A program made the position numbers and the translations under genes. Source: Sipunculus nudus (taxonomy: Eukaryota > Annelida > Sipuncula > Golfingiida > Sipunculidae). From it: 64,000 bases of DNA. The notes below the pieces were generated by a model that had not been told where the DNA came from, ran no database searches, and saw only the letters and a list, made by a program, of their open reading frames with translations. The stretch's first letter is position 1; each line of letters begins with the position of its first letter. Positions 1 to 63,400 of this stretch are shown here, piece after piece. The stretch spans positions 56,277,750 through 56,341,749 of the forward strand of contig CM049318.1 in NCBI GenBank assembly GCA_026874595.1, given 5' to 3'.

Positions 1-533
1 TTAGCTATCATGAAGTCTCACTCATCTGTAATTCTTGTATTGCCACATATTTCCTTGAAGTTTTCTCTAAGGTCATTTTTTCGTAACCCTTTTATTAATG
101 ATATATTGTGAACTTGACATATTTCCCCTAAAGTTGTATCATCAGGGCGATAAAGGCGTGCACAGATTACACCCGATGACTGTGCTGGTCCGGTAAAACA
201 GGTTTCATTGTTTAATACCTGTATGACCAAATCAAAATTCAGTTCCCCCATATTAATATATAGGTCTTTCATACACGGTTTAATGTCAGGCAATGATTTA
301 AATAAAAATACACACGGGAGAGCATTTCGAACATTATTATTCAATGTAACTGCGGCACTGTGGTTTACAGCTAAGCATACTGCCACGTTGTCCTCAACAT
401 GGTCCTCGATAAATGAAACGAGCCCACTCGTCTAATATATTTGTTTGCTGGATACTGCTGTTGGAAGATTCGGCAAGCTAGTCAACTCTTGTCGTTCAAC
501 AGGTTTATCTTTTAACATGCTTGCATTTTTTTC
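1..533 (-). pseudogene. GPCR ectodomain exon, decayed tandem copy (partial)
   Basis: This is a paralogue of the ectodomain exon of the intact receptor at 14,475-18,787. Reading the minus strand, the same landmarks appear in order: TAVSSKQ, VCLAVNHS, LPCVFLF, LNNETCFTGPA, GVICARLYRPD, CGNTRITDE. It is broken. There is an in-frame TAG at 432-434 where the intact copy has Ser, and a TGA at 18-20 where the intact copy has Trp (TDEWNF). It also lacks about 13 residues after the SFIEDH stretch, and its splice acceptor near 530 is degenerate. The exon runs off the left edge, so the transmembrane exons are not visible. It pairs with the signal-peptide exon at 5,253-5,347 across an intron enlarged by insertions. 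Confidence 0.82.
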
Positions 534-5252: not shown

Positions 5253-5347
5253 CTCATAAACTTGGAGACCATTCCATGTTGTTTCAATGGTTTTGGCCAC
5301 GATAAGCTGCAGATTAGGATTGCACTGATTACGCCTAGTTGGATCAT
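5253..5347 (-). pseudogene. GPCR signal-peptide exon, decayed tandem copy
   Basis: On the minus strand this begins MIQLGVISAILICSLSW, matching MFQVGLLSFILSCSLSW of the intact receptor, and ends at a GTAAGC splice donor in the same place. It is 95 bp long against 102 bp in the intact copy, because of small deletions after the Trp codon. The frame after the signal peptide is therefore lost. Together with the stops in its partner exon at 1-533, this marks the copy as non-functional. Confidence 0.78.
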
Positions 5348-6939: not shown

Positions 6940-7110
6940 GACACATTCAAGAAAACATTTTAGAATTCCTCACTCAATTCTTAACATATATGGAACGCAC
7001 AAGTAAAGTTGATACTACACTACAAAAGCGCAGATAAACCAACAAACTTGACCAATTTCTTTTGAAACCTCGAAGGCTCAGCAGAAAGGCGTCAAAAACG
7101 CTCAGTGGTC
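6940..7110 (-). pseudogene. GPCR TM7-exon remnant (third receptor copy)
   Basis: About 170 bp aligns with the C-terminal exon of the intact receptor (14,515-14,690), from the cytoplasmic tail across the TM7 cysteine region. Shared stretches include GAATTCCTCAC at the tail and CAGCGCAGATAAA-type sequence over the Leu-Arg-Cys-Cys segment. No long open frame survives. The rest of this copy (TM1-6, ectodomain) is not found to the right, so it is a truncated relic. Confidence 0.68.
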
Positions 7111-12324: not shown

Positions 12325-13989
12325 CAATTAATTTGGCCTCATTGCCACCCGATTACACAACGTTAAAGATTCTCCTCCTTACATTCAACTGTCTTCACGG
12401 TCTGTCATCTATACGTTTAAAACGGCATAGTAGCCCTTCATGTTTCCATTTTTTTGTAGCCATGATAAAAAAGGTAACTAGGAAATGTCTGATGCATTTT
12501 ATATTGAGATAGACCGAGACTTGTTGTGTCAGTTTAACTGCTGAACTATGAAGATATTATTATGTAATTATTTGCAATTGTTAGGTAATTGTTAGACCAC
12601 ACACTCTAAACACTTTTTAAACACTTGTGTTACAGAGCAGCAACAAATAATATCGATGGTTAATAAACATTAAGGAAAGGGAGTGTTTGGTTAATGGGAC
12701 AGAGAAATTTACTTTGCAGAATCTTAAAAAGATAAAAATAGAGCAGTACTAATGTATTGGTATTGGTACAAAGTTAATGACGGTATTGAAAATAAATATC
12801 GTATTGTGATCTTTGCAACTGAGATTGTAGCTGGTTTGAACGTACATAAACGCTAGATGTGACCTCCATTCGAATACCAATCCCCAACAACCTTTAAATT
12901 AAAGTCAGAGAAATAAGAACCTAGTGACAATTCCTTTACTCATAAATCAAAATTAACTGGAACTAATTCTTAAGGTTATTTATGAAGAATTTTGGTGGCT
13001 GTTAGACCTTGGGGCTGTGGTCTAATTTGTGTCTTCTCTCACCTCATAATTTTTCATTCTCTCTGGTCCTCAAATCTCCATGCATAAAGGAAACAAGAAA
13101 ATTATTATCAATATGGATGTAATATATTTGTTACTTCTACTGCAATACACACTAGCCACAGCTCATTAGGCATATACATATAAGGATACAGAACACATTT
13201 CAGTGACAATGCAACACATGATAAAATAAGAAACAAATAAATCTGTTAGATACATATATAATCTATATACAATATTCATATGTTTCTATTTTCAAGGATC
13301 CCATGCACAATATATTTCATCATCTTCTTCTATAATATCGGGAGGAACATAATCTAAAATGTACGTCCAACGTCATGATCATCAATTGATCCGATGATGT
13401 CCTTGTGATGCACAGGACGTGTTTAAATGCTCATTGTTCTTGACTTGATTTGTAAAATTTTTGTTTGCCACCATGCTTTCAACAAAATAAAACGTGTAAT
13501 GCCCTGCACATCCTGCATTAATCACATCCTTGATTAGCCTTCATAGTTGAGAAAAGAACAGAGATATTTACGAAGAAGGAAGAAAAAAGAACCTACGGAA
13601 ACAGCTGACAGATATAGGCAGGATTTAAGGAAGTTTAGCCGGACATTGTTAGGTCAACGAGTCTTCTGACTTGCCCCATCATTTTAGAGGCAGTCCTATG
13701 GGAGTAGTTCTATAAGCCTAACAAGCAAGATTCCCCCCCCCAAAAAAAAAAAGTCATCGCTTTAGTCCGTTTCCTTTTCTTGAAATGTTTGTTTTAATGT
13801 AATTATATTTTTACCATATCATTTAGTTATTCTCATTTTTGAAACTCCGTACAAACCCTCCAACGACCCAAGCAGACTCGAAAATTCTATTTATCTGACA
13901 AAGTGTATAAAAACAAGATACATGCATATTTTTTCTACTTTTCCATTACACAATAAACCTTTCTTAAAAGAAATCGTTGCCGATAGAAA

Positions 13990-14175
13990 AATTTTACCCT
14001 CTCCAGCCCCATAGCTAAGTCATAATACCGAGGAACTCCGTGAAGGCGCACCCGTTTGTGAGTGAATCACGACTGTAGGGCACAGTCTCCCCGTTAAACC
14101 AGCAGAGCGATCACCCTGGGTGGTGGCCGACCGTCAAAAAGTTCACCGCCTCGTCCTAGATTCGAACTCCCTATC
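13990..14175 (-). mobile_element. tRNA-derived SINE, truncated
   Basis: On the minus strand a B-box-like GAGTTCGAATCTAGG is followed by a body containing CACCCAGGGTGATCGCTC and ACTCACAAACGGGTG. The same order of motifs is found in the SINE at 51,540-51,785 (CACCCAGGGTGAGTGCTC, ACTCACTAAACGAGTG). The A-box half of the tRNA-like head is missing here. Confidence 0.62.
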
Positions 14176-14290
14176 TAGTATGGATATTTGTTATTATGTA
14201 ACATTTCAACCGTCACACATCAGCAATAAAAATATATCATATTATACAGCCATGTCGTATTCTATTCATATAACATGAATTACGAGAAAG

Positions 14291-14296
14291 TTTATT
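14291..14296 (-). terminator. Poly(A) signal of the receptor gene (candidate)
   Basis: AATAAA on the minus strand, about 180 bp downstream of the receptor stop codon. It is the nearest canonical signal, but A/T richness makes chance matches common. Confidence 0.4.
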
Positions 14297-14474
14297 ACTC
14301 AGATACATTTAATACCAAAATTAAACATAGTTATTCTATGATCCAGAGAACTGTTCTTTAGACATTGTTCCTCTGATATACCCTGTATATATCGTGACGA
14401 TACATATACGAAAGAATATTTAGGCAAATATATGTTCCATTTAAATTTAATATCCCATACTCCGGTCAAGTTTT

Positions 14475-16348
14475 TTAACAAGAAGCGCATTTTGGATGAC
14501 GTATCCAATGGAAAAAACGCATGAATTCCTCACGGAATTCTTCAACAAATATCAAACGCACAATAAAAGTTATTAACCCGCTACAACAGCGCAGATAAAG
14601 CAACAGGGGGTACACGAATGAATTCTTAAGAAAATTTCCAAAATAGAACACAATAAAGGCGTCTAATATGCTGAGAGGAATTTCTACAAGCATAAATATT
14701 ACAATAGTAGAAATAACAACCAAAGTAATACGAAAATTTGGCAAGGATGGCAGATTCTGGGAGAGTCTTTTTCTTTGTTTGTTTTTAATAACGAGAACAG
14801 TTATCATCCACACAGACAAAATAATTACAATCAGTACAGGAACCGCAATAAATGCCACATGGTAGATGATCTTAGTAACCAGCGAGTACAGGTCGACTTC
14901 ATATCCGGCGTCTTCAAGGGCCCTAGGTGTTCCAGTGACACATGAGACAATGATGCTCATCAGAAGGCATACACCTACTCCCTAAAATTAAAGCATGAGG
15001 ATTGAATTTACATATTACGGCGTTTACACGTTACGTAGTCGTGTACAGGCTACGTAGTCCCTCTATGTTATTTTGGCGTGTACACATTACGTAGCCCCTC
15101 TATGTTATTAAGGCGTGTACACGTTCCGTGGTCCCTCTATATTATTTTGGCGTGGTTTCGCAAGGTTTTGCGATGTAGTTGACTTTTTATTATCATATTA
15201 GTTTCTATGCTGCTTGATAGCACAAAATTGCATATTCTATACATGAACATATTTATCATAATATAATTCTCTTCTCCTGGGCATACGTCTTAACAGCATC
15301 TCAACAACAACAAAAATAAAGTCGTCTTCATTTGGTTAATAGAGGTTAACCATTTTATAGGATCATCAAATGGTATTACTGTACGCACAGTTCACATATA
15401 TATATATATGGATACGTTTCTTGAAACAATGCATTTTTAATAAAGTATCCGAGCACCAAGTTAACACATTTTTCTATTTTAAAATCGTAATTTATCGGAT
15501 ATTAGCCCACTGATCAAATGAATTATGCATGCAAAAAATTAATAATAATAAACACATCCATTTAAAATGTGCTTTAAAATGCATCAGCAGCAAGAATTCA
15601 TTTGTATTTTGTGGTCCGAGGAAACATTATTTATTAAAATGACGACAAACATGCACTCACCAACAAAGTTCTCTTCCAGCTGCACCATGTATCCGCCTTG
15701 AATGGAAAGACTATAGCTACAAATCTGGTGAAGGTCAACTGCACGTGACATGACCCAGATAAAACCATGCCAATATAGTTGAAAAAGTTACTTGTAATAC
15801 AGGGGTACCACGGTGGGCCACAGTGCTTGGCTCTGATAATTACTATTACATGGGCAAGTCCCAATATATCTGCAGTTGATATCATGATAAACAGCAGAGC
15901 TATTTTCCCCATCTTTCTTGTTGCACGTATGCTTCCGAGGATACATGAGACCTCGATAACAATATTTATACCTGGAATGAAATAATATTTCAAAATAGTA
16001 TATCCTGTAAAGTAAGTTTCAGAGGCCACAAATTTGGTCTTACAATTTTATACAGAAATTATATTTGTCTACGTCCGGAGGGCATGCGTTCATTCCCGTT
16101 AGTGTGTTTTTGTGTGTTTGTGCGTTTGTTCTCAACTTAACTTATGCTATCATGAACGGAATCTCATGACATTGTCAGGGCATTTCGGGAATGGCCAAGG
16201 AAGATTCGATAGATATTAGACCTAGGATTATAGACCAGATATGTGATCTGGTTTCCAGAGAAAACCACATTAACGACCCCAACATATCGAAGGCCTGCAC
16301 TGCAAAAATGAAGAATTTTAGTTTTATATTGTGTTTATATATGTAAAG

Positions 16349-16384
<36 letters not shown>

Positions 16385-18787
16385 TTTAATGCAGTTGTAA
16401 TCGAAAAAGCAGAAATATTGTCCAGAATGTTTTTTCTAGTAAAGTACATTTTTCTTTATCTAATATATTACATAAACATACATCCAAATTATAGAAAATA
16501 TAGAAATGGTGTATGAGTTTGCTCGAGTGAGAGTGGTATTGCTTGAATGCTGACCCTTAGTTGGAAACCAATACATAAAAAACAGAATACCTGCAATTAT
16601 TTCAGGTCCACCAGATGCACTTTCTCTTATCCGTTCCATGAGTTCAACCCGAGATCGCAGTCCATGGTCTTGACAGGCACTTGGGTACTTAGCAATCTTG
16701 AAGTTCCACTCATCTGTTATTCTTGTATTGCCACATCTTTCCATGAAGATTTTTCGGAATTCATCTTTTGCAGTTCCATTAATTAATGTCAAATTATTAA
16801 CGTGACATATGTCTGCATCTGACGTACCATCAGGGCGATAAAGACGTGCACAGATGACACCCGATGCCTCGGCAGGTCCCGTAAAACAGGTTTCATTGTT
16901 TAGTACCTTTATGACCGAATCAAGATTTGGATCCCGCATATTAATCTTCATGTCCTTCATACACCACTTAATGTTATGCCATAATTCAAACAGTAATATA
17001 CAAGGGACAGCCTTTTGAACATTCGATGTAAGTACAGCGCTGTAGTTTATAGCCAAGCATGCAGAAACGTTGGACTCCGATAACATATATTCAGTAAATC
17101 GCATGCTAGGCCCGGCAGCACGGTCCTTGATAATTGTAGCGATACCGCTCGTCGAATATTGTTGTTTGCTGGATACTGCTGTCGGAAGATACGGAGAGCT
17201 AGTTATCTCTGGTCGTTCAGCAGGTTTCTCTGTAAATATGCTTGGATTTTTCTGGAATGTGATCACAAGGAATATTCAATATTTTAGAAAAAAAATACCA
17301 TTTACAATTATAATAATAAAACACGTTACCCCTTAATATTTTATTGTTATTTTAAAACCATATGCGTTTTCATAATAGAAATGTACATATCTAATTAGTC
17401 AGATGCACATTTTTGGCACTCTTTCCTGCACATATTCTGCCGTTGCACAAATCAAGAACAAGACCGTGTAGATGAGAAGACGAACACTCTTTGATTAATT
17501 GACAAATATGATAAGGGTGGATTGAATAATGATAATCTGATTTGATTTTTGAAAAAAGTTCTTATTACAATGGAAGGGTAAATGGAAGGCTTAACTGATT
17601 TTATGAGTTAGTTCTAAATATACTTGTAAATGATTTATTTTAGAACAAAATAGCTTGCTCATGAGAACAGTTTGCTGATGTGGCACAGTGTACTGTAGTA
17701 ACATTCAGGAAGGAAAATTATAAAGCTAGTATAAAGCTAAATCAGTTGTCAGTACATCCCCGTGGTATTGACAATATATTTGAACCTAGGACTCGTGGTA
17801 AAAAACGTTGCCAAAAAGTAGAATATTTTGCTCAGGGACCTTTCCAGTTAATACATTTGAGATCCGTTGATACTTTGAACAAAGCCGCAGGTCGCAAGAC
17901 AACTAGCTATTCATAATTAATATCATGTGCTGTCGTGTGTCACAGATTTAGATCATTAATGATGTCCACTGATAATAACGTACCACAAGTTTTGATTTGG
18001 CAGGGTTGTTAACGAGAGTGGTTTGCGCTCTCACTAGGTAGCAACGCTGAGGAACATTGCAGCTTTGTCCATTCGGGTCTTAATTGGGCTGATAGGTCAG
18101 CAGTAAGTGTTAATGTCGTATGTAAACTACGTGTTCTACGTGTATGTGGGTATATTTCTTGTAATTTGCAAAATATTAAAGGCATATTTGGAACCATTGT
18201 TCTTTTTTTGTGTTTATCACATATCATATACGGGAAAAGAGATGTGACAAGTATACCTTATACGCCAGAAACCAGTAAAACCACCAGTTGTGGTTTCAAA
18301 TATGGAATAGTTTCTACAAGTTTCATAGACTCGATGAAAAAGAATAAAACAGATAATGCAGTTTTGCTCCTGATTTTACTTATATTCACTTTAAGAGATC
18401 TATTGTTCACAAAATGTTGCGTAAATGTTAAAAAAAAATCTTGTGGCTAATGCCATAATATTTGCTTAATTTGTGTTTATATTTCCTCCCCTGGTAACTC
18501 AGTAGTAAAAGCAAGTAAAATACCTTGAACTGTTGATTAACATATTCATATCCTCCCGAGCAGTTTGTCAGTTTACAGTCGCTACCACTTACTCAAGTAT
18601 CATTAACACCTGTGCATCTTAACATGCTCTCATAAAAAGTATATAAACTATAATTATAAATTGTAGATATATAGATAAGGCTTACCTCATTAACTTGTGA
18701 ATCTGTAACTTTCCATGTTGTACCAATTTTTTTGGCCCATGATAAGCTGCAGCTAAGTATAAAACTGAGTAAGCCTACTTGGAACAT
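14475..18787 (-). CDS. Orphan class A-like GPCR with large cysteine-rich ectodomain
   Basis: Four exons read on the minus strand: 18,787-18,686, 17,251-16,591, 15,971-15,661 and 14,981-14,475. All introns are GT-AG, the phases are 0, 1, 0, and the sum is 526 codons plus TAA. Residues 1-18 form a signal peptide (MFQVGLLSFILSCSLSWA). Residues 35-250 are an ectodomain with many cysteines and five N-X-S/T sites (NVS, NYS, NET, NLT, NGT) that matches no domain I know. TM1-3 (about 250-345) carry TAD289 in TM2 and TRFVAIVFPF in TM3, an E/DRY-type variant with Arg337. The last exon gives TM4-7, with Pro460 in TM6 (VEIP) and SGLITFIVR in place of NPxxY. The tail HPKCASC could be lipidated. The short start exon was chosen for its signal peptide and good donor. 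It should act at the plasma membrane; the ligand is unknown. An extra small exon in intron 1 cannot be excluded. Confidence 0.85.
15019..15155. repeat. 37-bp minisatellite in receptor intron 3
   Basis: Units beginning GGCGT at 15,019, 15,075, 15,112 and 15,149 share ACACGTTACGTAG and CCCTCTATGTTATT. Spacing is 56, 37 and 37 bp; the first unit carries an internal duplication of GTGTACAGGCTACGTAG type. It lies in the intron between the TM1-3 and TM4-7 exons. Confidence 0.8.
16080..16215. repeat. Dispersed repeat in receptor intron 2 (inverted partner 33,540-33,665)
   Basis: About 130 bp is shared in inverted orientation with 33,540-33,665. Key stretches are CGTTCATTC, GGAATCTCATGA and GCATTTCGGGAATGGCC here, and their reverse complements there. 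The two copies in opposite orientation suggest a transposed repeat. No terminal repeats were resolved. Confidence 0.6.
16350..16385. repeat. (TA)n(TG)n microsatellite
   Basis: Adjoining TA and TG dinucleotide runs in receptor intron 2. Confidence 0.9.
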
Positions 18788-20260
18788 TGCTACTTGTGAT
18801 GGTGGTTGCAGAAGTAGCGCTAATGTTGAAAATGAAGCTCTGGGGAATAGAAATACATATATGTTTAATACGCAATGTAAACATCAGGTATTTAATGTCA
18901 AAATATACTGTTATGAAGTTTACATAATTCTGTCAAGGATCATTATATAGTTATCATTATAATGATTATTATTATTATATTGTCTCGTAATTTATACAAC
19001 CAGCTCAGCATGAACAATCTATTATATATCTCCGTGTTCTAAGTTCGTCAGCATACCAGAATAGTTTAGAAAACTGCATTAAAGGCAGTTTTAACAGTGT
19101 CTGGTTTAATGCACATACCAGAATCTATATGGCAATAACATTTTTTAATGTAAATATAGGCTGTGCTTCAAAGAAATAATATTTAAAGAAGCTTCCTTAA
19201 GTGTCTTCGTGTCACACTTTCCTACAAATGCCATTTCACTCAAAATATATACAAAAAATATAGGGAAAATATAATAAAATGAAATACTTATTACAGTTAT
19301 GTATTTGATATATAACGGAACTGATCGTTTGATGAAAAGAACAAAATATAGGCCTTGTCCTACACGCTAAACCTCATCCCCTTTGCGTATGCAAATTACT
19401 GATATTCATATACTTTCAATTTAAACCTGATGATTGATAAGAACTAACAGCACACTTTATAAAAACGTAGTTTTGAAATAGGGCAAAAAGTAATAATGAC
19501 TACCGGATGGCTTGTTAAATTCGGTCGTGTCATAGGGCCTATTATACTAGTATTTGTAAACGAGTCTTGCATTACAAGACACAAGTTTTAATCATTTTTA
19601 TCGGATTTGTTGACTGCTGGAATAAAATAAGACTAACTTAACACGTTGTATTTACAAAAATATGTAAGATTTATAGAAACATTACGAAGAATATATCATA
19701 TTCATATAGATTATATGAATTCTCGGCCACACAAACCGCAAAGCCGAATAAACATGAATTAGATCCTATTTCAACGTACTGCAATGATATATTAAGTTTT
19801 GAATAGTGGGTACAATAATGGAAATTTTCCTAATTTATCTAGTCAATTAAACAATTAACAAAGCATATCCTAAATTCGATCCTCACTCATTTCAGGTCAT
19901 ACTCAATAGGCCTTTGGACATGTTACGTGACTGCAGATGAAGCATGTAGTTACTGAATTTGTAATTTTAATTTTTATAATGCCTGGGCCTTATCCTGTTT
20001 CTACTTAAAAGGGCAAGAACCCCATCAAATACTGTTTTACCATTTTTCATACACACATATATATAAGCCGCATTTCATCGTTTCGTTCAGTGCAGATTAA
20101 TTTGCAAGGACTGACGAATTATTATCCAGATGTATCTGCCATTAAGTAACAATTTCACGTCTGTCAGCTGTAGTTTTCTGCATAGTCGAAAATATCATGA
20201 CGCTGAAATGCAAGATTTCGATACCCGGTCAAGGAAATGTAAATATAACTCTAAAATGAA
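18788..20260. other. 5' flank of the intact receptor; no gene seen
   Basis: Positions 18,840-19,200 align with the 5' flank of the pseudogene copy (5,400-5,700), so this part was duplicated together with the gene and should contain whatever drives it. No convincing TATA box or initiator can be picked out in such AT-rich sequence. The rest shows no recognisable feature. Confidence 0.4.
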
Positions 20261-20269
20261 GTAAGTATA

Positions 20270-21990
20270 AACAAGCATCAGAAACTGTATAAATGAAGAA
20301 CATACCTCCCATTCCAAAAAAGGTACTGTTAATGAAAGAAAAATATCCTGATGAATATTTTGCATTTCCATACCAAGGTGAAAAATATATTTTACACTAT
20401 TAATATCTGATTTCTTAACAAAATTATAATCATATTTTTCAATTAAGTTTATGTGGTATGCTATTAATTGAAGAATATCAATAATAATGCAAAGTTTATG
20501 CATCAACAATAAAAATACACGTATCTAATAATACATTTAAACTACATCGATGTAAAGAACTTAAGAATCATCGAAATCCGGCCGTAGGTAAGGAAATATT
20601 TAAACATGCACAGACGGTTGTGAAACGGATCCAGCGAAATACAAATAAAACTAAAAGTTTTCTAGTCAAAAAGTGGATTTATATTTACTTTCGAATCGGC
20701 GCCAGGGAGTCTAGGCTGAGCAGAGAGACATGGGTATTTAGAATCCTAAAATATTCGCATCAGCTAATTATCACTTCTTGTTCCTCCATTTGTAAAAATG
20801 CATATATGATTTCTTTTTTTCTCGCTTTCCTTGATTCATATTATTCGCTGTAATGATTTCGTTGGTTGACCATAAGCTATCCCTTGAAAAAAAATCCCCT
20901 GGGAAACTGTTGAAAGAGAAAGTCTACACCATGGGCGTGTTATAAGCTAACAATTAGTTTCACTAGTGCTCGTGGTATATATACGAAGATCCAGTTCTTC
21001 GTTACTAGTGATTGGATTCTTAATCTTCTTTATTTTAATTCGTATGTAAGTTTCAGAAAATACAATCTGACATTTAACGCATAATTTTAAAATTAATTTG
21101 CCTATTAAGTTTGATGCGTTTCGGTTTTATTACAAACAAACAGATTACTTCCAAGCAGACATAGAAACTTAGGATACTCATAGAATACGTACGCACATTT
21201 ATTTTATCTAACGTCGTGAACTGTGAAACGTGTAAACAAAATTTAATAATAGATATCGAAATAGCTAAAAGGACGTGTGAAACGTGTAAACAAAATGTAG
21301 TCACAGATGTTCAGATCGCAAAAAAAATATTAAAATAAACTGTTAATCCGGTTAACTTATATGGAATTCCCAAGACCCCCACTCGAACCGTATTTTAGCT
21401 TATGAATCTTAAGTTGGTACAAGTATAATTCTGTGCTATGCTTTTTATTTGTTCCTTTTTCTGTCGAGGGGCGGTAACAGATTATACTTAGAACTAATTG
21501 GTCCCAAGGAGAATGTTTTCAACAGTGCCCTTGGAAAACCTTCTCTATGGTTCACTTTAATCCAAGGTACCCTGTTATTAAGGAAATAGTGAGGGAGGTC
21601 CGTACTTAACACGATCACGTCAGTCCGTCCCCCCTTTAACAAGTTCTATGCGACATCTCATCTTCTATGCGATATCTAAAAACCATTTACTCCTTTCCCT
21701 TTTCTTATAAAAAAATCTGGTTTTGGTTACACTTGGACTTTTTCATGAATTATTTTAATATATTCTTAAATTCTAAATTATACACATTTCACTTATATTA
21801 CAATGTATAAACAACTTTTACTCGTATCTATTTATTAATAAAAAGTTTCTTCTCAATCGGTTAGATTTTGGTCACACCTTAATGGTTTTAGATTTTGTTA
21901 AATTTTGAAAGCTATAATTATATTTCATATGTTTCATTGTTTCATGTTTCATTTAAAGAAACAGTTAGTATGATCCACCTCTCATTGAAA
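20270..21990. repeat. Duplicated block (partner 29,200-30,870)
   Basis: Long colinear similarity with 29,200-30,870. Shared stretches include CATACCTCCCATTCCA (20,305 and 29,228), GAAATCCGGCCGTAGGTAAG (about 20,574 and 29,504), GCGCCAGGGAGT (20,700 and 29,630), CCTTGGAAAACCTTC (21,530 and 30,362) and GATCCACCTCT near the end (21,970 and 30,826). The minus-strand frames at 21,445-21,642 and 30,329-30,523 (GRTDVIVLSTDL and GRTDEIMFGTDI) correspond to each other and may be decayed exons of an unknown gene. Confidence 0.72.
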
Positions 21991-22179
21991 CGCTATGGTC
22001 TATTTGCCACTTTTTTTTTAATAAAGTAACGTTAGAGATTCTCATGTGAAACTTTTAACAAAACGGAATATTAGTGAAAAAAACTTGAAAATCAGGCGGC
22101 TGTAAAATGGAATAAATGAAGTGAGATTATATCTTATGCCTTAAAAAATAAAATAATCACAGACTGCATTTCGGTTTAC

Positions 22180-25109: not shown

Positions 25110-27179
25110 CAACTGTCTGCACCGTCTGGATCCGCCTCACCTCTCACCTCTCACACTGCAATGTTTAGCTTAGAACATAAATTTATGCTTCTGGTTGAGC
25201 ATGATGACAGGTTGTTTTGGGCACTTCAGGTGCTTCAATTAATTTATCCGCTAATTTCGAGATTATTTTAACATTTAATTATTATTATTGCCATATTTAT
25301 AACCCATGTCGTCAAAATTAATATAATAAATGCTGTAGTTCTTGTTGCTCTTCTTTTTTCTCTCCTTTAATTTATTCTTGTTCTCATTTTTCTGCTTCTT
25401 GTTCGCTGTCAAAGGTGAAATTATGTTTCAGTTTGCTGGAATAAACTTGACTGCTAGACTATGAGGATATAATTATGTAATTATTTGTTATTGTCAGGCA
25501 ATTTGGCTCCCATTAAAAACACTAATAATGGATATTCATTTGCGTTGAATATCTGAAATAGTTTAATACGTTTGTTATATCTAGTGCTCGCTTCCAGTGC
25601 TCTCAAGGTGTATTTGCAACTAAATTATTTTTAATATAAATAAAAGCTGTGTTTGTGAAAGTTACTGAGGGTGCACAAGTCCTTTGTTGTCATATGTTTC
25701 GTTGTCGGTCGGTGTGCACGTTCCCATGTTCCATACAGGTTTATAGATGACCCATTAATTCTACACATGGATCACACATTCTAAGCACTCTTTATACACA
25801 GGTGGTACGCTACAGAAACAAATTATATTTCCCGAAAAGTAAGTGTGTTATATTCATCTTTCAAGGTGTGTATCCCAAGGAATGGTGTCCGGCATTTTCA
25901 TTGAATGGATAGTTTTGTAACTTATCCTTAGCATGTTAAAAGTATTGAAGATTGCTTTGACTGAATATATGTCTTTAGCATTTGTATTCTCGTTGACCTA
26001 TCCTCTAGAAACACCATGCATAAATGAAACAGAAGAAAATTATCATCAACAAATATATGATATTCATTTGTTGCTTCTGCTGCGATAGGCACTAGGTGCA
26101 GCGCTTAAGGCATACGAACATGCAGAAACACATTTCAGTGTCGAAGCAACACATTTTGAAATAATAAACAAAAAATTCTGCAAGGTATATAACAGGGGCC
26201 ACAATATATCGACATCAGGAAAAAATTAAATATTCATATGTTTTATTTTTAAGGATTTCATACATGGGGAATTTCATTTTCTTCTTCCTTAATAGTGGCA
26301 AGGGTAAAATCTAAAATCTACGTCCCACATCGTGATCTTAAATCTAGCTGATGTTTGTCCTTATGAATGCCAAAAACTTATTTAAATGTTCACTGTGCTC
26401 AAGACGATTTCAAAACCTACTTTAACTTCCCATCATGCATTCAACAAAATAAAACACGTCCGATGCCCTGAACATCCTGCAGGGATCATCTCCATTATTA
26501 TCCTTCTGAGAAAGGAACCCAGATATTAACGTAAAAAGTATCCTCTTGACACAGCTGATAGATATATTAAATAATTAACTCAAATTTAACCGGAATTCGG
26601 TAGGTGTCGCTGAGTCTTCTGTCTTCTTCCATCCTTTCATACGCAGGTCTATGGGAGTAGCTCTACAAGCCTATTAAACATGTTTCCCTCCGTAAAGTCA
26701 TCGTTTTAATACATTTCCTTTCTTCAAATGTACGTATTAATACAATTATTCAATTATGTATCCTCTTTTTTCAACTCCGTATAAACCCTCCAAAAAGACC
26801 AAAAGTCGAGTAGACTGGAAGAATATATTTCTCTTACACACCGTACAAGGCAAGATATCACTTTTATTTATTTTCTCATGACACAATAAACCTTGATGAG
26901 ACGAACTGTCGACGATAAAATACATTTCGACATTTCTACCATCACACATCAGCATTTGAGAAAATATGTCAGATTAGAGAGCCGTTTTGGTAATCTATTT
27001 ACATAACCTCTATTGTGGGAATGTTTATCACTCTGATACAGTAAACTAGAATACCAAAATGGTTAAGCTATGGTCCTGAGACCTGTTCTTTGGACCGGGC
27101 TCCTCTGATATACCTGCTTATATCATGACGAGACATATACGAACTTTAATTTATCAAATGGAGGTGAACGTGAATAACT

Positions 27180-29160: not shown

Positions 29161-29199
29161 TATTTTTATATTACTCTATAATAAAGTTAAAATTAACAA

Positions 29200-30870
29200 G
29201 CACCAGAAATTGTTTGAATGATGTACATACCTCCCATTCCAATAAAGGAGCAAACTGTTAATGAAAGAAAAATATCTTGCAAAGATATTTTGATTTTCAA
29301 TGCCAAAGTGAACAATAAATTTTACATTATCAATATCTTATTTCATAACAAAATTATTATCATAATTTTAAATTAAGTTTATGTTGTATGCTATTATTTG
29401 AAGAATATCAATAATAATCCAATGTTTATGCATGAAAAATAAGAATACATGTATCTAACAATACATCTAAATTTCATCGATGGAAATAATTTTAGACTCA
29501 CCGAAATCCGGCCGTAGGTAAGGAAATATTGAAAACTTGCAAATATGAAAGACGGTTGTAAAAAAGGATCTAGTGAGATACAAATATAACTAAACGTATT
29601 ATAGTCAGTAGATTTGCTTTTAAATCGGCGCCAGGGAGTTTAGGCTGAGCAGAGAGACATGGGTATTTCAAATCCTAAAATATACGCATCAGCCTATCAC
29701 CACTTCTTGTTCCTCCATTTGTTAAAATGCATACATGATTTTTTTCTCACTTTCCTTGATTCCTATTATTCACTGTAATGATTTCGTTGGTTGACCATCA
29801 GGTATCTCTTAAAAATCCCTTGGGGAAACTGTTGAAAGAGCAATTCTACACCATGGGCGTGGTATAAGCTAACAATTTAAATTATTTTCACTAATGGTCA
29901 TGGTATATATATAAAGATCAGGTTCTTCGTTATTAGTAACTGTATTCTTAATCTTCTTCGTTTTTATTCGTATGTTAGGTTTCAGGAAACAATAGCTGGT
30001 GTTTAGCGCATAATTTTAACATTAATTTTCTATTGATTTTGACGCGTTTAGCTTTATTCCTTCCAAGCACACATAGCAACTTAGAATACTCATAGAATAC
30101 GTTCGCCCATTTATTGTATTTTAATGTTCAAAAGACTGAAGAAAGAAACAGGAGTTTTAATTATTCTGTGAAACGTGTCAACAAAATTAAGTAGCATGTT
30201 CAGATCGCAATAAAATATTAAATAAAAAACAAAGGTACAAGGATAATTGTATGTTGTACTTTTTTGTTTGTTCCTTTTTGTGTGTTCCTTTTTCTGATGA
30301 GAGGCAGTAACAGATTATACTTGGAATATTATGGTCCCCAGGAGAATGTTTCAACAGTGCCCTTGGAAAACCTTCCTTTTGGTTCTTTGTTAACCAAGTG
30401 CTCCAAGTTATTAAGGAAATACCCAGAGATGTCTGTACCGAACATGATCTCGTCTGTCCGTCCCTCCTTTTCAATGTGACAACTCATCTTTAATGCGATA
30501 TAAAAAAAAAACAATTTACTCATATCTTCCTTTTCCTATAAAGGCAGGTGTGTATCATAGGTCCGCAGACCTGGTTGTGGTTACACTTTGATTTTTACAT
30601 GAATTCTTGTTATATATTATTAAATTCTTAATTATACATATTATATATTACAATGTATAAACAACTATTATTCATATCCACTTTTATTAATATGTTACTC
30701 TTCAACCGGTTAGATTATGGCCCCACCTGAATGTTCTTAGATTTTGTTAAATCTTGAAAGCTATACTTATATTTCATATGTTTCACAGTTTCATGTTTCA
30801 TTTTTTTTTCAAAAAGAGTCAGTATGATCCACCTCTTGTTGAAACGCCATGGTCTTTTTGCTACTTGATA
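29200..30870. repeat. Duplicated block (partner 20,270-21,990)
   Basis: Second copy of the block described at 20,270-21,990. After its end the sequence (31,011-31,340) resembles 11,650-12,060 and 23,620-23,760, so the order of blocks is shuffled relative to the left side. Confidence 0.7.
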
Positions 30871-34811: not shown

Positions 34812-36140
34812 TTATTCGTACCACAAAAGAGTACATTTATTGTATACAATGAAAAACAAACAAACAAACAACGAAAGTGCAAAAATACAAAAATAGGACC
34901 ATTCAGTCCAAAGCATCACCTCAACAGTAGACAACACATTAATCAGCACGTTCACTTCCTCAGTTGTTAAGTGTGACGTACTTAATCCGTCTTTACAGTC
35001 AGTTAATTTCAATATTAATTCTATGTTAACAGACATTGGTACCTTTTGATAATGACTCTTTAAGGTATTAAGATTACCAGTGTCAACCCACATTCCATAT
35101 TTATCCATCTATCTTTCAAGATATCTTAGATCGTTTCCAAGTACACCGACAGATGTATACAATATTATTTTCAACAGTATACATAGTGCATAAAAATGTG
35201 ATAAAGCGTGCAATGAATATATTTATCACAGAAGAAGACCCTCCAAGACCATGAACAATACTCCTGTGTGAGTTATATGGCAAATGCCAAATATGACGCA
35301 AAGCCTTGTTATAAGATGTACATAAATTTTTCTTTTAATTGACTCTGTATTATCCAGGGCTGGCAGCCATAGAATGAACAACAAAAGGAATGAAATAACT
35401 TATTTACAACCCTCGTCGACAGACATCCAAAGTTAGACATTAAAACATTAAAGCTTGAGATAAATTTGCCCCTTTTATTCATTATATCATGATGATCTGA
35501 TAAGTCTGAGCTTACCATATTTCCTATGTACTGCACAGATTCCTCCCATTCCATCGGAACACCATTTAAGCATACGTTTTCTGGTTTAACTGCTGTACCC
35601 TTTTTGAACAGAACACATTTTGTTTTCTTTGGATTGAAAACCATGTCAAATTCTTTTGCAAAACGTTCACATTCTTTCAACATTTCCTGAAGGCCTGACC
35701 TACTAGGGCTTAACAATGTGAGATCATCAGCATAGCCTAATGCTCCTACATAATGACTACCAACATAACATCCAATATCTTTATTTCTAAGCCGATTCAG
35801 TAATTCATCTGTATTTATATAAACAGGAATACACTGGTGAACCATTCCATATGTAATGTCCAACTGTTTCCTTTAGGACCACTTTACACATGCTAGTTGA
35901 GCAGCCTTTTTTAAATGCAAACTGTAATGAGGAGGTACTGAGTTTATTTCCAATCCTATTGATGATTATAATATCGAGCAACTTACTCAAACAACTAGCT
36001 AAAGAGATACCTCTATAATTGTCACTACACGTGAGATCACCCTTACGATCTTTAGGTATGGGTACAATTACATGTATTCATATCTTTGGAAACATGTCCA
36101 TTGGAGATCATAAATTGAAACAGAATTGACTTCAGAATTA
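34810..36140 (-). mobile_element. CR1/Jockey-like LINE, 5'-truncated
   Basis: Minus-strand frames in order: DNYRGISL near 36,000, LSTSSLQFAFKKGCSTSMCK at about 35,900, then from 35,863 GYADDLTLLSPSRSGLQEM with an intact YADD motif and FNPKKTKCVLF. A KALRHIWHLPYNSHRS tail lies at 35,300, and the last frame is NIELILKLTDCKDGLSTSHL near 35,000. It ends at the (TA)n run at 34,759-34,809. About 1.3 kb remains, covering the RT palm and thumb and the C-terminus; the endonuclease is gone. A few stops or shifts separate the frames, so it is recent compared with the LINE at 8.2 kb. A 3'-end relative lies at 57,745-58,110. Confidence 0.82.
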
Positions 36141-37312: not shown

Positions 37313-37407
37313 TTTAGCTATTTGCATAAACCATCCTAATGGATAATAATTAATTATGCTCGAATAACCACACCAGATACCGCACCACCAACTTCTTGAT
37401 CACCGTC

Positions 37408-38910
37408 ATGCCAAAGAAATCGAAAAAATGCTGCAAAAAAGGCACCTGGCCGTGGCCGTGGACGCCGACGCATGGCGGATCCGTCATCACCAACACCCTC
37501 ACGTTCACCCTCTGATGATAATGCAACTTCCAACGCCTCTCACTCATCAGTGGCATCGGTAGCTTCGTCGGTGGCCTCCATCTCGTCTCAGCCAAACCTT
37601 GCCAAGAAGAGGGCCAAGAAGACACAGTTTTGTCTTGATGTTCAAGAGGAGAAGCTCATGTGTGATTTCCATCAAGAAAACTCCATTCTCTGGGACATCA
37701 AGAAAACTGAATATCGGAGGGTGGACAAGAAGGCAAGGCTCTGGGAGGATCAAGCAAATGCCATGGGGAAGACTGTCAATCACCCTCAAGGGAGGTTCAA
37801 GTCGCTGCGGGACACCAACACTCAGCTCGACAAGAAGAAAAGTGGTGACGGCGCCACAGAACTTACAGAAAGAGTGCAGTGGGTGAAGGCAAACTTCGGG
37901 TTCTTCAAGAATGTGGTCCGCCATCGAGCTGAGGCCGTCAACAGTTTAAGTATAAACAGATATAATTATTAATATTCATTTAAATGTATTTCATTGTGAT
38001 TATAAATCATTAAATTTGCCTTGTATTTGTCTTTTATTTTATTCAACAATTGTCAAAACTGCATTTGCAGGTGAAGGAAACCATTGCAGCACACAGCGGG
38101 GACCTCGAGGTTGCAGAGGCTGCCTGTGCAGACATCATGATTGATGACGACAGCACACACTCCCCTGTCCCCTCCTTATCCTCACATCGCATGGGCAAGC
38201 GTGGCCAGGAAGAAGACCATGTGCTGCAGTCACTCCAGAAGAGGGTGTACTAGTCTGGGGAGCTCCTTAAAGGTCGCGCACAGCCTCAGCCCATCACAGC
38301 CACTGCAGCCTTCGCCAACTACGTGCGTGACAGCCTGGTCAGCTTGTCAAAGCACAAGTTCCAGAAGGCGAGGTCACACATCAACATCGTCCTCAGTGAG
38401 CTGATGGACGGGGAGAGTGATGAGGAAGAACCTCCAAAAGTCCCTACCTTTCCTGTTTCTGCCTCCATGCGACCCAGTTCAGCACCAGCTACCTACACCC
38501 CCACGGCGTCAGAGCAGTTCCAGCCATCTCCCCACATGTGGAGACACAAGTCACCGTCTGCGTCAGTCTGGAGTATACAGACAGCTGGCTTTGAAGACCA
38601 GTACACACAGCAGCCGCTGCAGCCACAGTTCCAACAACAACATCTTCAGTACCAGCGGATGATGCCTCCTCCTCAACATGGAATCCAACCCCTTCCTCAG
38701 ATCACGCAGCAGCCAAGCTCCGCCTCTGTATCTGATGCTCTAGGTTCGGCTGGCCAGGTACTGAACCAGAGCCCAAGCGCCCTTGACACTAGCAGCCAGA
38801 GTTTGTGTAACATCTCTGGACTATCAGGAATACTCAACGTGTCCAGTGGTCCTGTTGCTACAAGCAGCCCTGCCGGGGGACTGAAGACACCTCCACCACC
38901 AGAGAACTAG
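37408..38910 (+). pseudogene. Harbinger accessory MADF/Myb-like protein
   Basis: In autonomous Harbinger elements this protein binds the transposase and target DNA and helps nuclear import. Exon 1 runs from ATG 37,408 or 37,472 to about 37,940. A basic KKAPGRGRGRRR stretch just before MADPSS is in frame with it but sits one base out of frame with the upstream ATG. A Ser-rich stretch follows, then a MADF-like domain at roughly residues 53-150 of the second start (WDIKKTEYRRVDKKARLWEDQ...GRFKSLRDTN...WVKANFGFF). Exon 2 begins at acceptor 38,070 (VKETIAAHSGDLEVAE), continues into SGELLKG and a Pro/Gln-rich tail, and ends at TAG 38,908-38,910. One in-frame TAG at 38,251-38,253 interrupts it, and the exon 1 donor is unclear. 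Confidence 0.72.
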
Positions 38911-39022
38911 TTCCAGTGACAGTTGTGTTCTTCTAGGGAGTTTTGGCCATTTTTGTACCATTTTGTGTGTACATGTTTGACCATTGTTGACACTAACCAT
39001 TATTATTTTATGTTGAGCACAA

Positions 39023-39028
39023 AATAAA
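39023..39028 (+). terminator. Poly(A) signal of the Harbinger accessory gene
   Basis: AATAAA 113 bp after the accessory-gene stop codon, on the coding strand. Confidence 0.6.
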
Positions 39029-39972
39029 AGTTGAGTAAACTCTTGATTTATGTTATTTTAATGATTAATCCATAAGCAATAATAAACAATAATAGAAGAC
39101 ATACTGTATGACCCCTTTTGCCGTTTGTATGTTGATGAAAAGTAAGTGGGTAATATAAATTGTGTCAATCGTTATTAGCTTTTATCTAATAGGTGTTGAC
39201 ATTAGTCTTGCTCGTAAGTGAAAAATAAACTGTTAATTTCTATATACAAACAAAGTGATACGTTTTTTTAATTTTAAACGTAATATAAATATAGTCAATT
39301 CCACGCAAAAATGGACAACGGTTTACAAAAAATTGAGTTTGTCTTTTTCCTGAAATGCTCTCTCCTACTGATTTAAGGTTTAATAAGTATTTCTGAAACA
39401 GGCTTTGGATTTCACTAAACATTTTTGATGATTGGCATCGCAATTCTGAAATAATGCAACTAACAATAAATAACACAGTGTGTTCATTCATAACATGAAA
39501 ATAAAACCAGCATGAAAGTTACAACAAAAATAAGTTTTCAGGTCTTCTATTAATAAATGAACTGCGTAACTGGTATCTATGTAGAAAACATGTAATATAC
39601 AGGTTCAAATTATGTGTCCTTCCATAATCGTCCTCATAAGTATGCATAATTGATTACAGATTTATCATTGTGAAACATGTTGGAATTTCTCCTATTAACA
39701 CATTTTTAATGTTAAAAAGTGTTATCAATAAAAAAACCTTTTCCAGCAGCAATTGCTTGAACTTTGAAGATTGTGCCTGAATGTAATTTCGTTACCGTTG
39801 AATTGCCCATATACATCTTTATTCATACACTTTGAAAAATATATATTAATACTTTAAATGTACAGTCAACACAAACTTATTACAAATGAACAAGAATATT
39901 ATCATTGATGAATATTTATCAGTTGTACATATATTACAAAGTCTATATTACAAAATAGCCTCGAGAGGAATC

Positions 39973-41408
39973 TTATAGTCTCTGAGGTACTTTATTGCCT
40001 GAACAATGCAGTGATACAAACATCATCTTAATCATCCTATCTTGCCACGGAATTGTACCAGCCGAGCAATTAATCCAGTGCTTGAGGAGATTCGTCTCTT
40101 TCTTTCCGTCTTTGGAGGCAGTGTTGGGGCCACTGGCTGTCGGTGTATCCTCCAAGTGACGTCCCTCTCGCCATGCTCCTGGAACAAAGTCGCGGTTCTC
40201 ATTCTTTGCCCGGTCAAGCTGTAGGTTTTTAAGTCCTGGGTACCTAGAATTTGAATTTGTTTACTTATTTAGCTAGAATAATAACATATTCTAAAACACC
40301 GTACAAATAATATTTAAGGTAAAATCATATTATTTTTATAAACATTAGGGAAACGTTAATATGCATTGTAAATTGTATAAAGTATGCTACGTAAACATGA
40401 ATTACCTGGTCCTTATGAGGTTGTGCAGGATCAAGCATGCTTTGACAATGAGCAGTGGAGGGGTGATGCTGCATAGTACTTAGCAGAACCTGGAATCTAT
40501 TAACCAGGATGCCGAATGCATTTTCTACTACCCTTCTTGCTCGGCATAGTATGTAGTTGAAGATGCGTTCTTCATTCGTCAGACCCCGGAGACTGTATGG
40601 CTTCATCATGGTTGGTCGTAGGGCGAAGGCATCGTCACCGACGAAGAAGTAGGGGCAGTCCTGGTTGTCGTTGGGAAGAGGCTCAGGGTCAGGGAAACCT
40701 AGGGTACCGTCTTCAACGCATTCCTTCAGTTCACAATCATTGTATATCTGTGCATCTGATGCTGATCCAGTACCACCGACATCTGCCCAAATGAGTTTAA
40801 AATCAGCATCCACAAGTGCCATCAGAACAATGGAGTAGAATCCTTTGTAGTTGAAGTTATGGGAACACACTCTTTGGAGGACAGCGGCAGGCCACGTGAT
40901 TCCCATCAAGTGCCCCACATGTATGAGGAAAGTTCCATCTTTGGTAGAACGTGTTAGCAATGGTGCGCCAACCATCAGGAGTACTTGGACAAACTAACAC
41001 CTCATTCACGTATTCATCAATAATGGCTTGACAGACCTCTCTGACCACTAGAGACTGGGTGTTGTGAGGGACCCTCCATCCGAACTTCATTGAGGCATAC
41101 TTGTTCCCAGAGGCAAGGTGACGCAGAGTTAGGGCCAGCTTCATGCCAGGCTCGAGCAGATCCCTGTAGAAGGTGTACTTTTTTGTTATCCTTGGACCTA
41201 CTCTGGCAAGCAGCTCGTCGAACATCGCTGGGGGCATACGCACGAAGTTAATGAAGGATGCATGATCCTCGTTACGGAGTTCCACCATAAGCTGGTCGTA
41301 CATGCCAAAATGTCGTCGCCTCCCGATCCATTGTCTCACCCAGTTCCGTCTCCTCCGTTTACATCTTCTTCTCCTGGCTTTATTGGCACGCAGCTGGTAT
41401 AGTGTCAA
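39973..41408 (-). pseudogene. Harbinger DDE transposase (DDE_Tnp_4 type)
   Basis: It cuts and rejoins the element's ends through a DDE triad. Minus-strand order: basic RRRRCKRRRRNW, MPPAMFDELLARVGP, LALTLRHLASGNKYASM, WNFPHTCGALDGNHV (first Asp), YKGFYSIVLMALVDAD, WADVGGTGSASDAQI (second Asp), VGDDAFALRP, and RRVVENAFGILVNRFQ (Glu). The last exon starts at 40,243 after a 162-bp GT-AG intron (40,244-40,405) and gives YPGLKNLQLDRA...GTIPWQDRM to TAA at 39,973. One extra base near 40,866 shifts the frame between CRCPPKS and NFNYKGF, and a second shift lies near 40,465 before KACLILHNLIRT. The frame stays open upstream of 41,408 to about 41,480 without an ATG. It is inactive as it stands, but the triad is preserved. 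Confidence 0.85.
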
Positions 41409-41862
41409 ATCGATGAGGTCATGCTGATGTTGGAGGACAGCTAGTAGGTATTCTCGTCTCGTTGCCGGATCCTCCGTCTCTCTGATGAGATGGATATCTG
41501 CTCACAAAGGTGTATTGAGGAGAACTGACGGGGGATTCTTCAGAGTCACACCTTTATATACCAATTAAGCTGAACTGCAAATAAGGAATTATACGTTAGG
41601 TGTACGTTAAAAACAGGTTCCGTAAGTTCCATGGTCGTTGGGAAAACGCCAAACACGTCTACATACGCCAATATGCGTTTGAGATAAGTTACACATAGGT
41701 TCAAAGCACGTTACTCATAAGTTTTGAGTACGCTAGACATTATCTTGATATATTTGGACTTATGAGTAACTTACCTGTGACGTTTGTGAAGGATCGCATA
41801 ACTTACTTACAACTTATGGCCCGCGCATGCGGGACGTATGAGCCATACGCTGGCATACGTCG

Positions 41863-60498: not shown

Positions 60499-63400
60499 AT
60501 ATATATATATATATATGTATAATGAAAAATCTCCTTGGAAACCAGAAATTAGGTCTCTGTTACCCATATCCTTGGAGCTATGGGGACCCAAAGTACCCCC
60601 CAGAAAAGTCAAAAATTTCATACAAAAACTTCAATATCTCATTAACTACTTGACTGATGGTCATGATATTTGGCATACATATTGATCATGAGATGTTCCA
60701 TCAGTTCCTGAGGACTGGTGGCGCCACCTGTATTTTTCGATTTTTTACGAATTTTTTTCTCTATTTTTGATACATTTTAAAATGTGAACATCTGTTAACA
60801 AGGCACAAATCGTAACGACTGGACCCAGAATCTTCATTATCGACACACTGAGAGACCTATGAAAAGTCTCCATGGAAACCAGAAATTAGGTCTCTGTTAC
60901 CCATATCCTTCCAGCTATGGGGCCCCAAAGTACCCCCCAGAAAAGTAAAAAATTTCATGCAAAAACTTCAATATCTCATTAAATACTTGACTGATGGTCA
61001 TGATTTTTGGCATACATATTGATCATGAGATGTTCCATCACTTCCTGCAGACTGGTGGTGCCACCTATATCGTTCAATTTTTTACTAATTTTTTTCTCTA
61101 TTTTTGAGACCTTTCAAAATGTGAACATCTGTTAACAAGGCACAAATCGTAAAGACTGGACCTAGAATCTTAATTCTTGACACACTGAGAGGTCCATGAA
61201 AAATATCCTTGGAAACCAGAAATTAGGTCTCTGTTAACCATATCCTTCGAGCTATGGGGCCCCAAAGTACCCCCCAGAGTAGTAAAAAATTTCATACAAA
61301 AACTTCAATATTTCAATAACTACATCACTGATGGTCATGATTTTTGGCATACATATTGATTATGAGATGTTCCATCAGTTCCTGCAGACTGGTGGCGCCA
61401 CCTGTATTGTTCGATTTTTCACGATTTTTTTTCCTCTATTTTTGAGACCTTTAAGGATGCTGTCATCTGTTAACGTGGCACAAATCGTAACAACTGGACC
61501 TAGAATCTTCATTCTTGACACACTGAGAGACCTATGAAAAGTCTCCATGGAAACCAGAAATTAGGTCTCTGTTACCCATATTCTTTGAGCTATGGGGCCC
61601 AAAGTACCCCCAAGAAAAGTAAAAAATTTCATACAAAAACTTCAATATCTCATTAACTTCTTGACTGATTGTCATGATTTGTGGCATAACTATTGATCAT
61701 GAGATGTGTCATCACTTCCTGCAGACTGGTGGCGCCACCTGTATGGTTGGATTTTTAATGAATTTTTTTTTTCTATTTTTGAGACCTTTCAAAATGTGAA
61801 CATCTGTTAACAAGGCAAAAATCGTAAAGACTGGACCTAGAATCTTAATTCTTGACACACTGAAAGGTCCATGAAAAATCTCCTTGGAAACCAGAAATAG
61901 GGGTCTCTATTACCCATATCCTTTGAGCTATGGGGCCCCAAAGTACCCCCCCCCCCCCCCGAGTAGTCAAAAATTTCATACAAAAACTTCAATATCTCAA
62001 TAACTACATCACTGATGGTCATGATTTTGGGCATACATATTGATCATGAGATGTTCCATCAGTTCCTGCAGACTGGTGGCGCCACCTGTATTGTTTGATT
62101 TTTTACGATTTCTTCCTCTATTTTTGAGACCTTTAAGGATGCTGTCATCTGTTAATGTAGCATAAATCGTAACGACTGCACCTAGAATCTTCATTCGTGA
62201 CACACTGAGAGACCTATGAAAAGTCTCCATGGAAACCAGAAATTAGGTCTCTGTTACCCATATTCTTTGAGCTATGGGGCCCCAAAGTACCCCCAAGAAA
62301 AGTAAAAAATTTCATACAAAAACTTCAATATCTTATTAACTTCTTGACTGATGGTCATGATTCGTGGCATACTATTGATCATGAGATGTGTTATCACTTC
62401 TTGCAGACTGGTGGCGCCACCTGTATGGTTGGATTTTTTTAATGAATTTTTTTCTCTATTTTTGAGACCTTTCAAAATGTGAACATCTGTTAACAAGGCA
62501 AAAATCGTAAAGACTGGACCTAGAATCTTAATTCTTGACACACTGAAAGGTCCATGAAAAATCTCCTTGGAAACCAGAAATAGGGGTCTCTGTTACCCAT
62601 ATCCTTCGAGCTATGGGGCCCCAAAGTACCCCCCCAGAGTAGTCAAAAATTTCATACAAAAACTTCAATATCTCAATAACTACATCACTGATGGTCATGA
62701 TTTTCGGCATACATATTGATCATGAGCTGTTCCATCAGTTCCTGCAGACTGGTGGCGCCACCTATATTGTTTGATTTTTTTACGATTTCTTCCTCTATTT
62801 TTGAGACCTTTAAGGATGCTGTCATCTGTTAACGTAGCATAAATCGTAACAACTGCACCTAGAATCTTCATTCTTGACACTGTGTCAATGACACACTGAG
62901 AGACCTATGAAAAGTCTCCATGTAACCAGAAATTAGGTCTCTGTTACCCATATCCATCGAGATATGGGGCCCCAAAGTACCCCCCAGAGTAGTGAAAAAA
63001 TTCTTACAAAAACTTCAATATCTCAATAACTACATCACTGATGGTCATGATTTTTGGCATACATATTGATCAAGGGGTGTTTCATCAGTTCTTGCAGACT
63101 GGTGGCACAACCTGTATTTGTTCGGGTTTTTTTATGATTTTTTCCTCTATTTTTGAGACCTTTAAGGATGCTGTCATCTGTTAGCGTGGCACAAATCGTA
63201 ACGACTGGACCTAGAATCTTCTTTCTCGATACACTGAGAGACCTATGAAAAGTCTCCATGGAAACCAGAAATTAGGTCTCTGTTACCCATATCCTTCGAG
63301 CTATGGGGCCCCAAAGTACCCCCCAGAGTAGTCAAAAATTTCATACAAAATCTTCAATATCTCAATAACTACAACACTGATGGGCATGATTTTCGGCATA

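Follow-up and report, generated by a model that had tools for sequence, protein, structure and literature searches.

What kind of gene joins the membrane bundle of a G-protein-coupled receptor (GPCR) to a signal peptide and a large extracellular domain (ectodomain) that resembles no named module, and does such a gene stand alone in its genome? We addressed this question for a gene of Sipunculus nudus that lies on the minus strand, at 18787-14475, of a 64,000-nucleotide stretch (GCA_026874595.1, contig CM049318.1; C13:56277750-56341749 in the 1.43-Gb assembly), referred to here as the window. We found that the gene is one intact member of a sizeable family of seven-pass receptors that share one ectodomain type, a family of which we found no description among the open PMC papers that literature searches listed. 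The new element is a pattern of cysteines suggesting that, in the clade of the window gene, a cysteine of the second extracellular loop (ECL2) was swapped for one in the first (ECL1).

An intact gene within a receptor family

The gene has four coding exons (102 + 661 + 311 + 507 = 1581 nt) that encode 526 amino acids (aa) and a stop codon, without an internal stop, and its introns all run GT..AG in phases 0/1/0. The protein begins with a hydrophobic leader, followed by a linker of ~50 residues (38% Ser/Thr/Pro) and by an ectodomain with eight cysteines (residues 99, 118, 131, 156, 168, 183, 207 and 227); five N-glycosylation sequons lie at residues 95, 103, 153, 187 and 192. Hydrophobic peaks mark transmembrane helices (TM) 1, 2, 4, 5, 6 and 7, with one extra peak adjoining TM5; TM3 (~318-336) falls below the hydrophobicity cut-off, and its position was taken from the family alignment. 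Thus, the uninterrupted 526-residue frame on four GT-AG exons of matching phase, which an earlier note on this DNA had proposed, was confirmed, as were its signal peptide, its cysteine-rich glycosylated ectodomain and its seven membrane segments (TM3 through the family alignment).

Splice sites were then counted across the family, each locus once and with an outsider GPCR (L052) excluded. The phase 1 donor of exon 2 was kept at 16/16 loci whose exon-2 end was covered, the exon-3 acceptor at 23/24 (in the alignment, the 24th is displaced by one base), the donor of that exon also at 23/24 (the exception, at C16:46.75 Mb, has a broken exon 4 too) and the exon-4 acceptor at 29/32. Conservation of this extent implies that the gene model is not a product of chance and supports it, with the splicing and phases as first modelled, without RNA. 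A candidate signal-peptide exon was also seen 5' of exon 2 in 9/11 loci (none in L039 and L040, a weak one in L043), a count without a chance control that we take as supportive only; these exons are alike within two sets of relatives (L041/L050/L051 and L042/L044/L045). Upstream of the start codon, a 5' untranslated part behind a splice acceptor may be present, because similarity to a broken tandem copy of the gene (copy A; window 5347-3, same strand, 13 kb downstream of the receptor gene) includes a CAG common to both.

A query of the animal's own genome with the last exon returned 41 rows at E<=0.01. Two of these were dropped as other GPCRs (C8:45.36 Mb, with 87.5 bits to Pfam 7tm_1, and C6:70.68 Mb, a 431-aa frame judged from the frame alone), two pieces of one locus were merged, and two places were added through a distant member, which leaves at least 40 exon-4 places spread over nine numbered contigs (C1, C6, C7, C8, C9, C11, C13, C15 and C16); genome match counts given here are lower bounds. 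A lone orphan gene is thereby ruled out, and the word 'orphan' in the earlier note, if it meant solitary, was wrong. Moreover, at E<=0.001 the exon 4 of a distant member (C13:21.91 Mb) matched 36 places, of which 34 were already known and the two new ones adjoin family members; as it picked up no other GPCR, the family looks discrete.

Queries for the ectodomain were taken from the window gene and from two of the distant members, with pairing limited to 8 kb upstream on the same strand. An ectodomain exon was found 1.1-6.4 kb upstream, on the same strand, at 31/40 exon-4 places (30 in the main pairing, with C16:16.86 Mb added); 24 of these 31 paired loci have no stop in either matched stretch and seven have one, stops and not frame shifts being scored. 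The main pairing list holds 33 ectodomain places, of which three are unpaired, one being copy A at the window edge. Within a core of ~150 residues, eight Cys, one Trp, and an Asn, Asp, Leu and Ile are invariant in 13/13 loci at a mean identity of 29% (the 13-locus statistics omit the near-copies L045 and L050, any broken locus and any locus that lacks one of the two parts), and the same eight Cys and Trp recur in a 12-row ectodomain alignment. A profile built from seven ectodomains was found in 10/14 further loci (E 2e-22 to 6e-15) and weakly in L048 (E 2.5e-4); it misses L047, L053 (a broken copy) and the outsider L052. Distances in the ectodomain and in the seven-transmembrane (7TM) part correlate (Mantel r 0.88, 0/10000 permutations as high; 13 loci) and have a ratio of 1.11, as expected if the two parts derive from one old fusion and were then kept together.

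The window ectodomain matched no Pfam family at E<=10, which includes leucine-rich repeats (LRR) and LDLa repeats; the whole window protein had no Pfam match to GAIN/GPS with a class B 7TM part, as in adhesion GPCRs, nor to the Frizzled cysteine-rich domain or the class F 7TM part of Frizzled/Smoothened. Against the relative at C16:46.77 Mb, the ratio of nonsynonymous to synonymous substitution rates (dN/dS) was 0.41 (0.25-0.61) in the ectodomain, 0.19 (0.08-0.33) in exon 3 and 0.30 (0.17-0.50) in exon 4, with every interval below 1; purifying selection acts on the window gene.

L044 and L045 (C9:2.94 and 3.78 Mb), 0.84 Mb apart, show four base differences over the aligned parts of three exons, having been either copied very recently or duplicated in the assembly. 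In L046 (5519-7303), the ectodomain exon carries ~36 tandem units of the ATDVATEAFS type ahead of the ectodomain, a mucin-like stretch.

Class assignment and a cysteine swap

The window gene has all four of Asp2.50, Arg3.50, Pro5.50 and Pro6.50 (position numbers assigned in this analysis), and across the family these class A residues are kept at 11/13, 13/13, 12/13 and 13/13 loci, respectively. The family has (N/T)RF in place of DRY and mostly GxxNxxxR in place of NPxxY. Nine of the 21 assembled relatives were scanned against Pfam: 7tm_1 was passed by 6/9, Srsx by 2/9 and Srx by 1/9, and in the sole relative that passed Srx the 7tm_1 score is higher; in L051, Srsx outscores 7tm_1 (37.4 vs 32.3 bits), and L011, L012 and L016, all three in the window's clade, pass no profile. 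Because 7tm_1 is passed by 6/9 relatives and Srx by 1/9, the 7TM part is, as judged from profiles and motifs, divergent class A (rhodopsin-like). Membership in Srx, which is over its cut-off only in the whole window protein and in that one relative, was rejected. The view of the gene as an intact class-A-like receptor thus gained support, with class A in a divergent form, and the large ectodomain without a named module was borne out by the Pfam search above and the search of Protein Data Bank (PDB) sequences below; of the earlier note's interpretation, these are the parts that were supported.

The canonical disulfide between C3.25 and C45.50 (ECL2), which is given as conserved in 92% of rhodopsin-like GPCRs in a published account (PMC10419011), was not found in the window protein. 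We tabulated cysteines and built a tree for 22 receptors, leaving out loci without both TM exons. An ECL2 cysteine with no extra ECL1 cysteine is seen in 14/22 receptors, and seven, the window gene included, have no ECL2 cysteine and carry an extra ECL1 cysteine seven residues before C3.25 (C-x6-C). The remaining receptor, L042, has neither C3.25 nor the ECL2 cysteine, and the joint loss fits a bonded pair. A broken locus on C15 likewise has the C-x6-C and lacks the ECL2 cysteine; among loci represented by exon 4 only, where ECL1 is not covered, the ECL2 cysteine is present in L018, L024, L025 and L029 and absent in L014, L015 and L027. The IQ-TREE phylogeny separates the seven receptors with the ECL1 cysteine from the others by one branch, which has a support of 88/96 and recurs in 86% of 200 bootstrap trees. 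These data suggest a single relocation of the TM3-ECL2 disulfide to a local ECL1-TM3 bond in the window's clade; as a single event, the swap can be described as a pattern but does not amount to statistical proof.

The same account (PMC10419011) describes a Y2R made inactive when the TM3 anchor of the disulfide was moved by one helix turn. Set against the conservation figure there, the swap would be a testable case of evolution seemingly moving a bond reported in 92% of such receptors and, if true, an experiment of nature in which the activation scaffold of class A receptors was rewired.

Proposed working and alternative explanations

We reasoned that the window gene is a working member of a multigene, divergent class A GPCR family whose ectodomain captures a ligand, whose 7TM part signals through a G protein and in which the disulfide of the window's clade has been relocated, and we assign this reading a probability of about 0.62. 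Members would share a signal peptide, a variable linker, the ~150-residue eight-Cys ectodomain and the 7TM bundle. The ectodomain may fold as a disulfide-stabilised domain seated on the 7TM part and capture a ligand from outside the cell; the likeliest cue is a peptide or protein, whether sensory or neuro-/immune-endocrine. Binding would be relayed via a short link to TM1 and to the extracellular loops, with the conserved Arg3.50 providing the coupling to a G protein. Receptors of the window's clade would have the local ECL1-TM3 bond in place of the TM3-ECL2 disulfide and thereby a free ECL2, which is perhaps tolerated where the ectodomain assumes ligand contact. We hold more tentatively, at somewhat less than even odds, the wider proposal of an undescribed animal GPCR family that arose by one ancient fusion of a class A receptor with a ligand trap of new fold, and in one clade of which the disulfide moved to the ECL1-TM3 C-x6-C, freeing ECL2.

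A possible model of the working comes from class A receptors that bind their ligand with a large ectodomain: in the LGR/RXFP and GRL101-type receptors, the ectodomain is made of LRR or LDLa, neither of which was detected in the window ectodomain. Compared with class A at large (PF00001), which the family resembles in its 7TM part with Asp2.50, Arg3.50, Pro5.50 and Pro6.50 and in the 7tm_1 scores of its relatives, the differences are TRF or NRF for DRY, the altered NPxxY, the signal peptide, the eight-Cys ectodomain and, in the window's clade, the lost ECL2 cysteine. The nematode Srx, Srsx and Srw chemoreceptor families (PF10328, PF10320 and PF10324) are similar in 7TM profile, with Srsx scoring above 7tm_1 in L051 and Srx above 7tm_1 in the window protein, but Srx and Srsx are passed by fewer relatives than 7tm_1; no such ectodomain is known from these families. 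The Aplysia candidate chemoreceptors AcCRa/b/c (PMC2700072) likewise form gene families of rhodopsin-like receptors in which an Arg is conserved where TM3 ends, but they are described as having 319-433 residues and a short N-terminus, from genes largely without introns, whereas the window receptor, at 526 residues, is encoded by four exons and has a large ectodomain. The platyhelminth PROF1 orphans (PMC3261222) are also a divergent rhodopsin-like family with eroded motifs; their genes are described as seemingly intronless, unlike the window family with its conserved introns and cysteine-rich ectodomain. Class A receptors in dozens of copies with a fixed, unclassified cysteine-rich ectodomain would form a receptor system with ligands and a role to be discovered.

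Several observations weigh against the proposed working. No ectodomain was found upstream of 9/40 exon-4 places, several of them fragments or broken and some unexamined. The window protein lacks NPxxY (its TM7 reads GLITFIVRL) and has TRF for DRY, so G-protein coupling is not assured; it lies below the Pfam 7tm_1 cut-off (23.5 bits whole and 25.5 for the 7TM part vs 30.5), and as a whole it is just over that of Srx (24.5 vs 23.8; 7TM part 23.3). AlphaFold2, given the ectodomain exon and, as a second row, copy A, returned a model with a confidence score (pLDDT) of 31, which was discarded. The tree was built on an alignment that includes the cysteine columns, and the disulfide is deduced from sequence. 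Finally, the first 48 ectodomain codons gave a dN/dS of 1.29 against copy A, which is broken, and several pairs that include near-copies or a broken member have dN/dS intervals reaching 1.

Could the ectodomain be a strongly diverged form of a known cysteine-rich domain, such as one of Frizzled type or an extracellular helical domain like those of nematodes? Eight cysteines in ~150 residues are a common layout, but besides the null results for the window member, in Pfam and, stray hits aside, among PDB sequences, scans of seven and of 12 ectodomain members against Pfam gave one stray match each (E 0.25 and 0.17), and profile matches among PDB sequences were stray as well, to plant lectins and two enzymes (E 0.43 or worse); we consider a known domain unlikely, with a minority of the weight. 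Improbable, to a further degree, is that these are ordinary class A neuropeptide or hormone receptors that bind their ligand in the 7TM pocket and use the ectodomain as a folding or presentation module: the 7TM motifs are kept in part, and the exon-4 query also reaches the ordinary, 7tm_1/Srw-scoring GPCR at C8:45.36 Mb, which is not of the family, yet the ectodomain accompanies exon 4 at 31/40 places, holds its eight Cys and five other residues invariant in 13/13 loci and diverges at a speed similar to that of the 7TM part (ratio 1.11).

We give about the same small chance to a family for recognition at the cell surface, be it in immunity, in allorecognition or between gametes, with an ectodomain that would bind molecules of foreign or partner origin. 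The large number of loci, spread over nine numbered contigs, the near-copies and broken copies and the mucin-like repeat of L046 would suit such a role, as would an ectodomain dN/dS above that of exon 3 in all six pairs measurable for both; however, there is no excess of protein change, ectodomain dN/dS being 0.40-0.64 across six pairs with dS > 0.1 and 0.59 (0.37-0.97) between the window gene and broken copy A. That the window gene is recently dead, or no longer signals and still reads open, is very improbable. The broken state of copy A, a further relic beside it and the degenerate TM7 and DRY motifs point that way, but all three exons compared with a relative whose matched stretches are free of stops have a dN/dS well below 1, every splice site is intact and 526 codons run without a stop; on these three grounds, a dead gene was rejected. 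The working receptor of a divergent class A family is the reading we prefer.

Features and neighbours in the window

Table 1. Parts of the receptor gene and its relics, in window coordinates.
Feature	Position	Strand	Basis
Exon 1: start codon, signal peptide, residues 1-34	18686..18787	-	Translation, GT donor; homologous exon with ATG in broken tandem copy A
Possible 5' UTR of exon 1, preceded by possible splice acceptor TTCCCCAG	18788..18839	-	Similarity to copy A
Exon 2: ectodomain, residues 35-254	16591..17251	-	Open frame; homologous exon in 18 aligned loci (1 partial)
Eight-Cys core, ~residues 85-254	17101-16591	-	8 Cys + Trp invariant, 13/13 loci and 12/12 rows
Exon 3: TM1-TM3, second intracellular loop with TRFVA replacing DRY	15661..15971	-	Acceptor and donor conserved in family
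Cys305 (ECL1) and Cys312 (3.25), proposed local C-x6-C disulfide	15799..15822	-	7/7 receptors of clade; codons checked
Exon 4: TM4-TM7, helix-8-like tail, stop codon	14475..14981	-	Homologous exon at 40 genome places
ECL2, short, without class A cysteine	14889..14933	-	Family cysteine comparison
Copy A exon 1 with one-base deletion, frame shifted	5253..5347	-	Similarity to window gene
Copy A exon 2: ectodomain 55% identical, in-frame TAG (432-434) and TGA (18-20)	3..530	-	Later exons beyond window
Exon 4 relic (TM7 region) of another degraded copy, between gene and copy A	6977..7108	-	tblastn E 4e-4; DNA 81% over 83 bases

Duplication has also touched the rest of the window: 20243-22012 and 29168-30866 are 77-81% identical, as a segmental duplication, and 26014-27143 is similar (68-75%) to 13078-14412, which adjoins the receptor gene on its downstream side. 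It looks as if a further gene copy once lay near 27-31 kb, where tblastn found no convincing receptor exon.

Scans of the window with Rfam (gathering scores) and for tRNA returned nothing, and short open frames on the plus strand at 51.8-55.9 kb, reminiscent of exons of ATP synthase assembly factor 1, had no Pfam match. A search of the genome for the mollusc haemocyanin domain PF14830 came back empty, as it did in the control genomes, and carries no weight as to the kind of animal. The window also holds a DNA transposon at 37400-41501, which we take to be Harbinger-like, with a MADF-domain open reading frame (+, 37400-37972) and a DDE_Tnp_4 nuclease frame (-, 40325-40993); an overlapping, unscanned frame (-, 40857-41501) looks like the front part of the latter. 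A reverse transcriptase fragment (RVT_1, 38.9 bits) lies on the minus strand at 35309-35872. Among other repeats, a satellite occupies 60522-63798 (337-bp units, ~9.6 copies, 84% matches), with related pieces at 52.6-53.3 kb.

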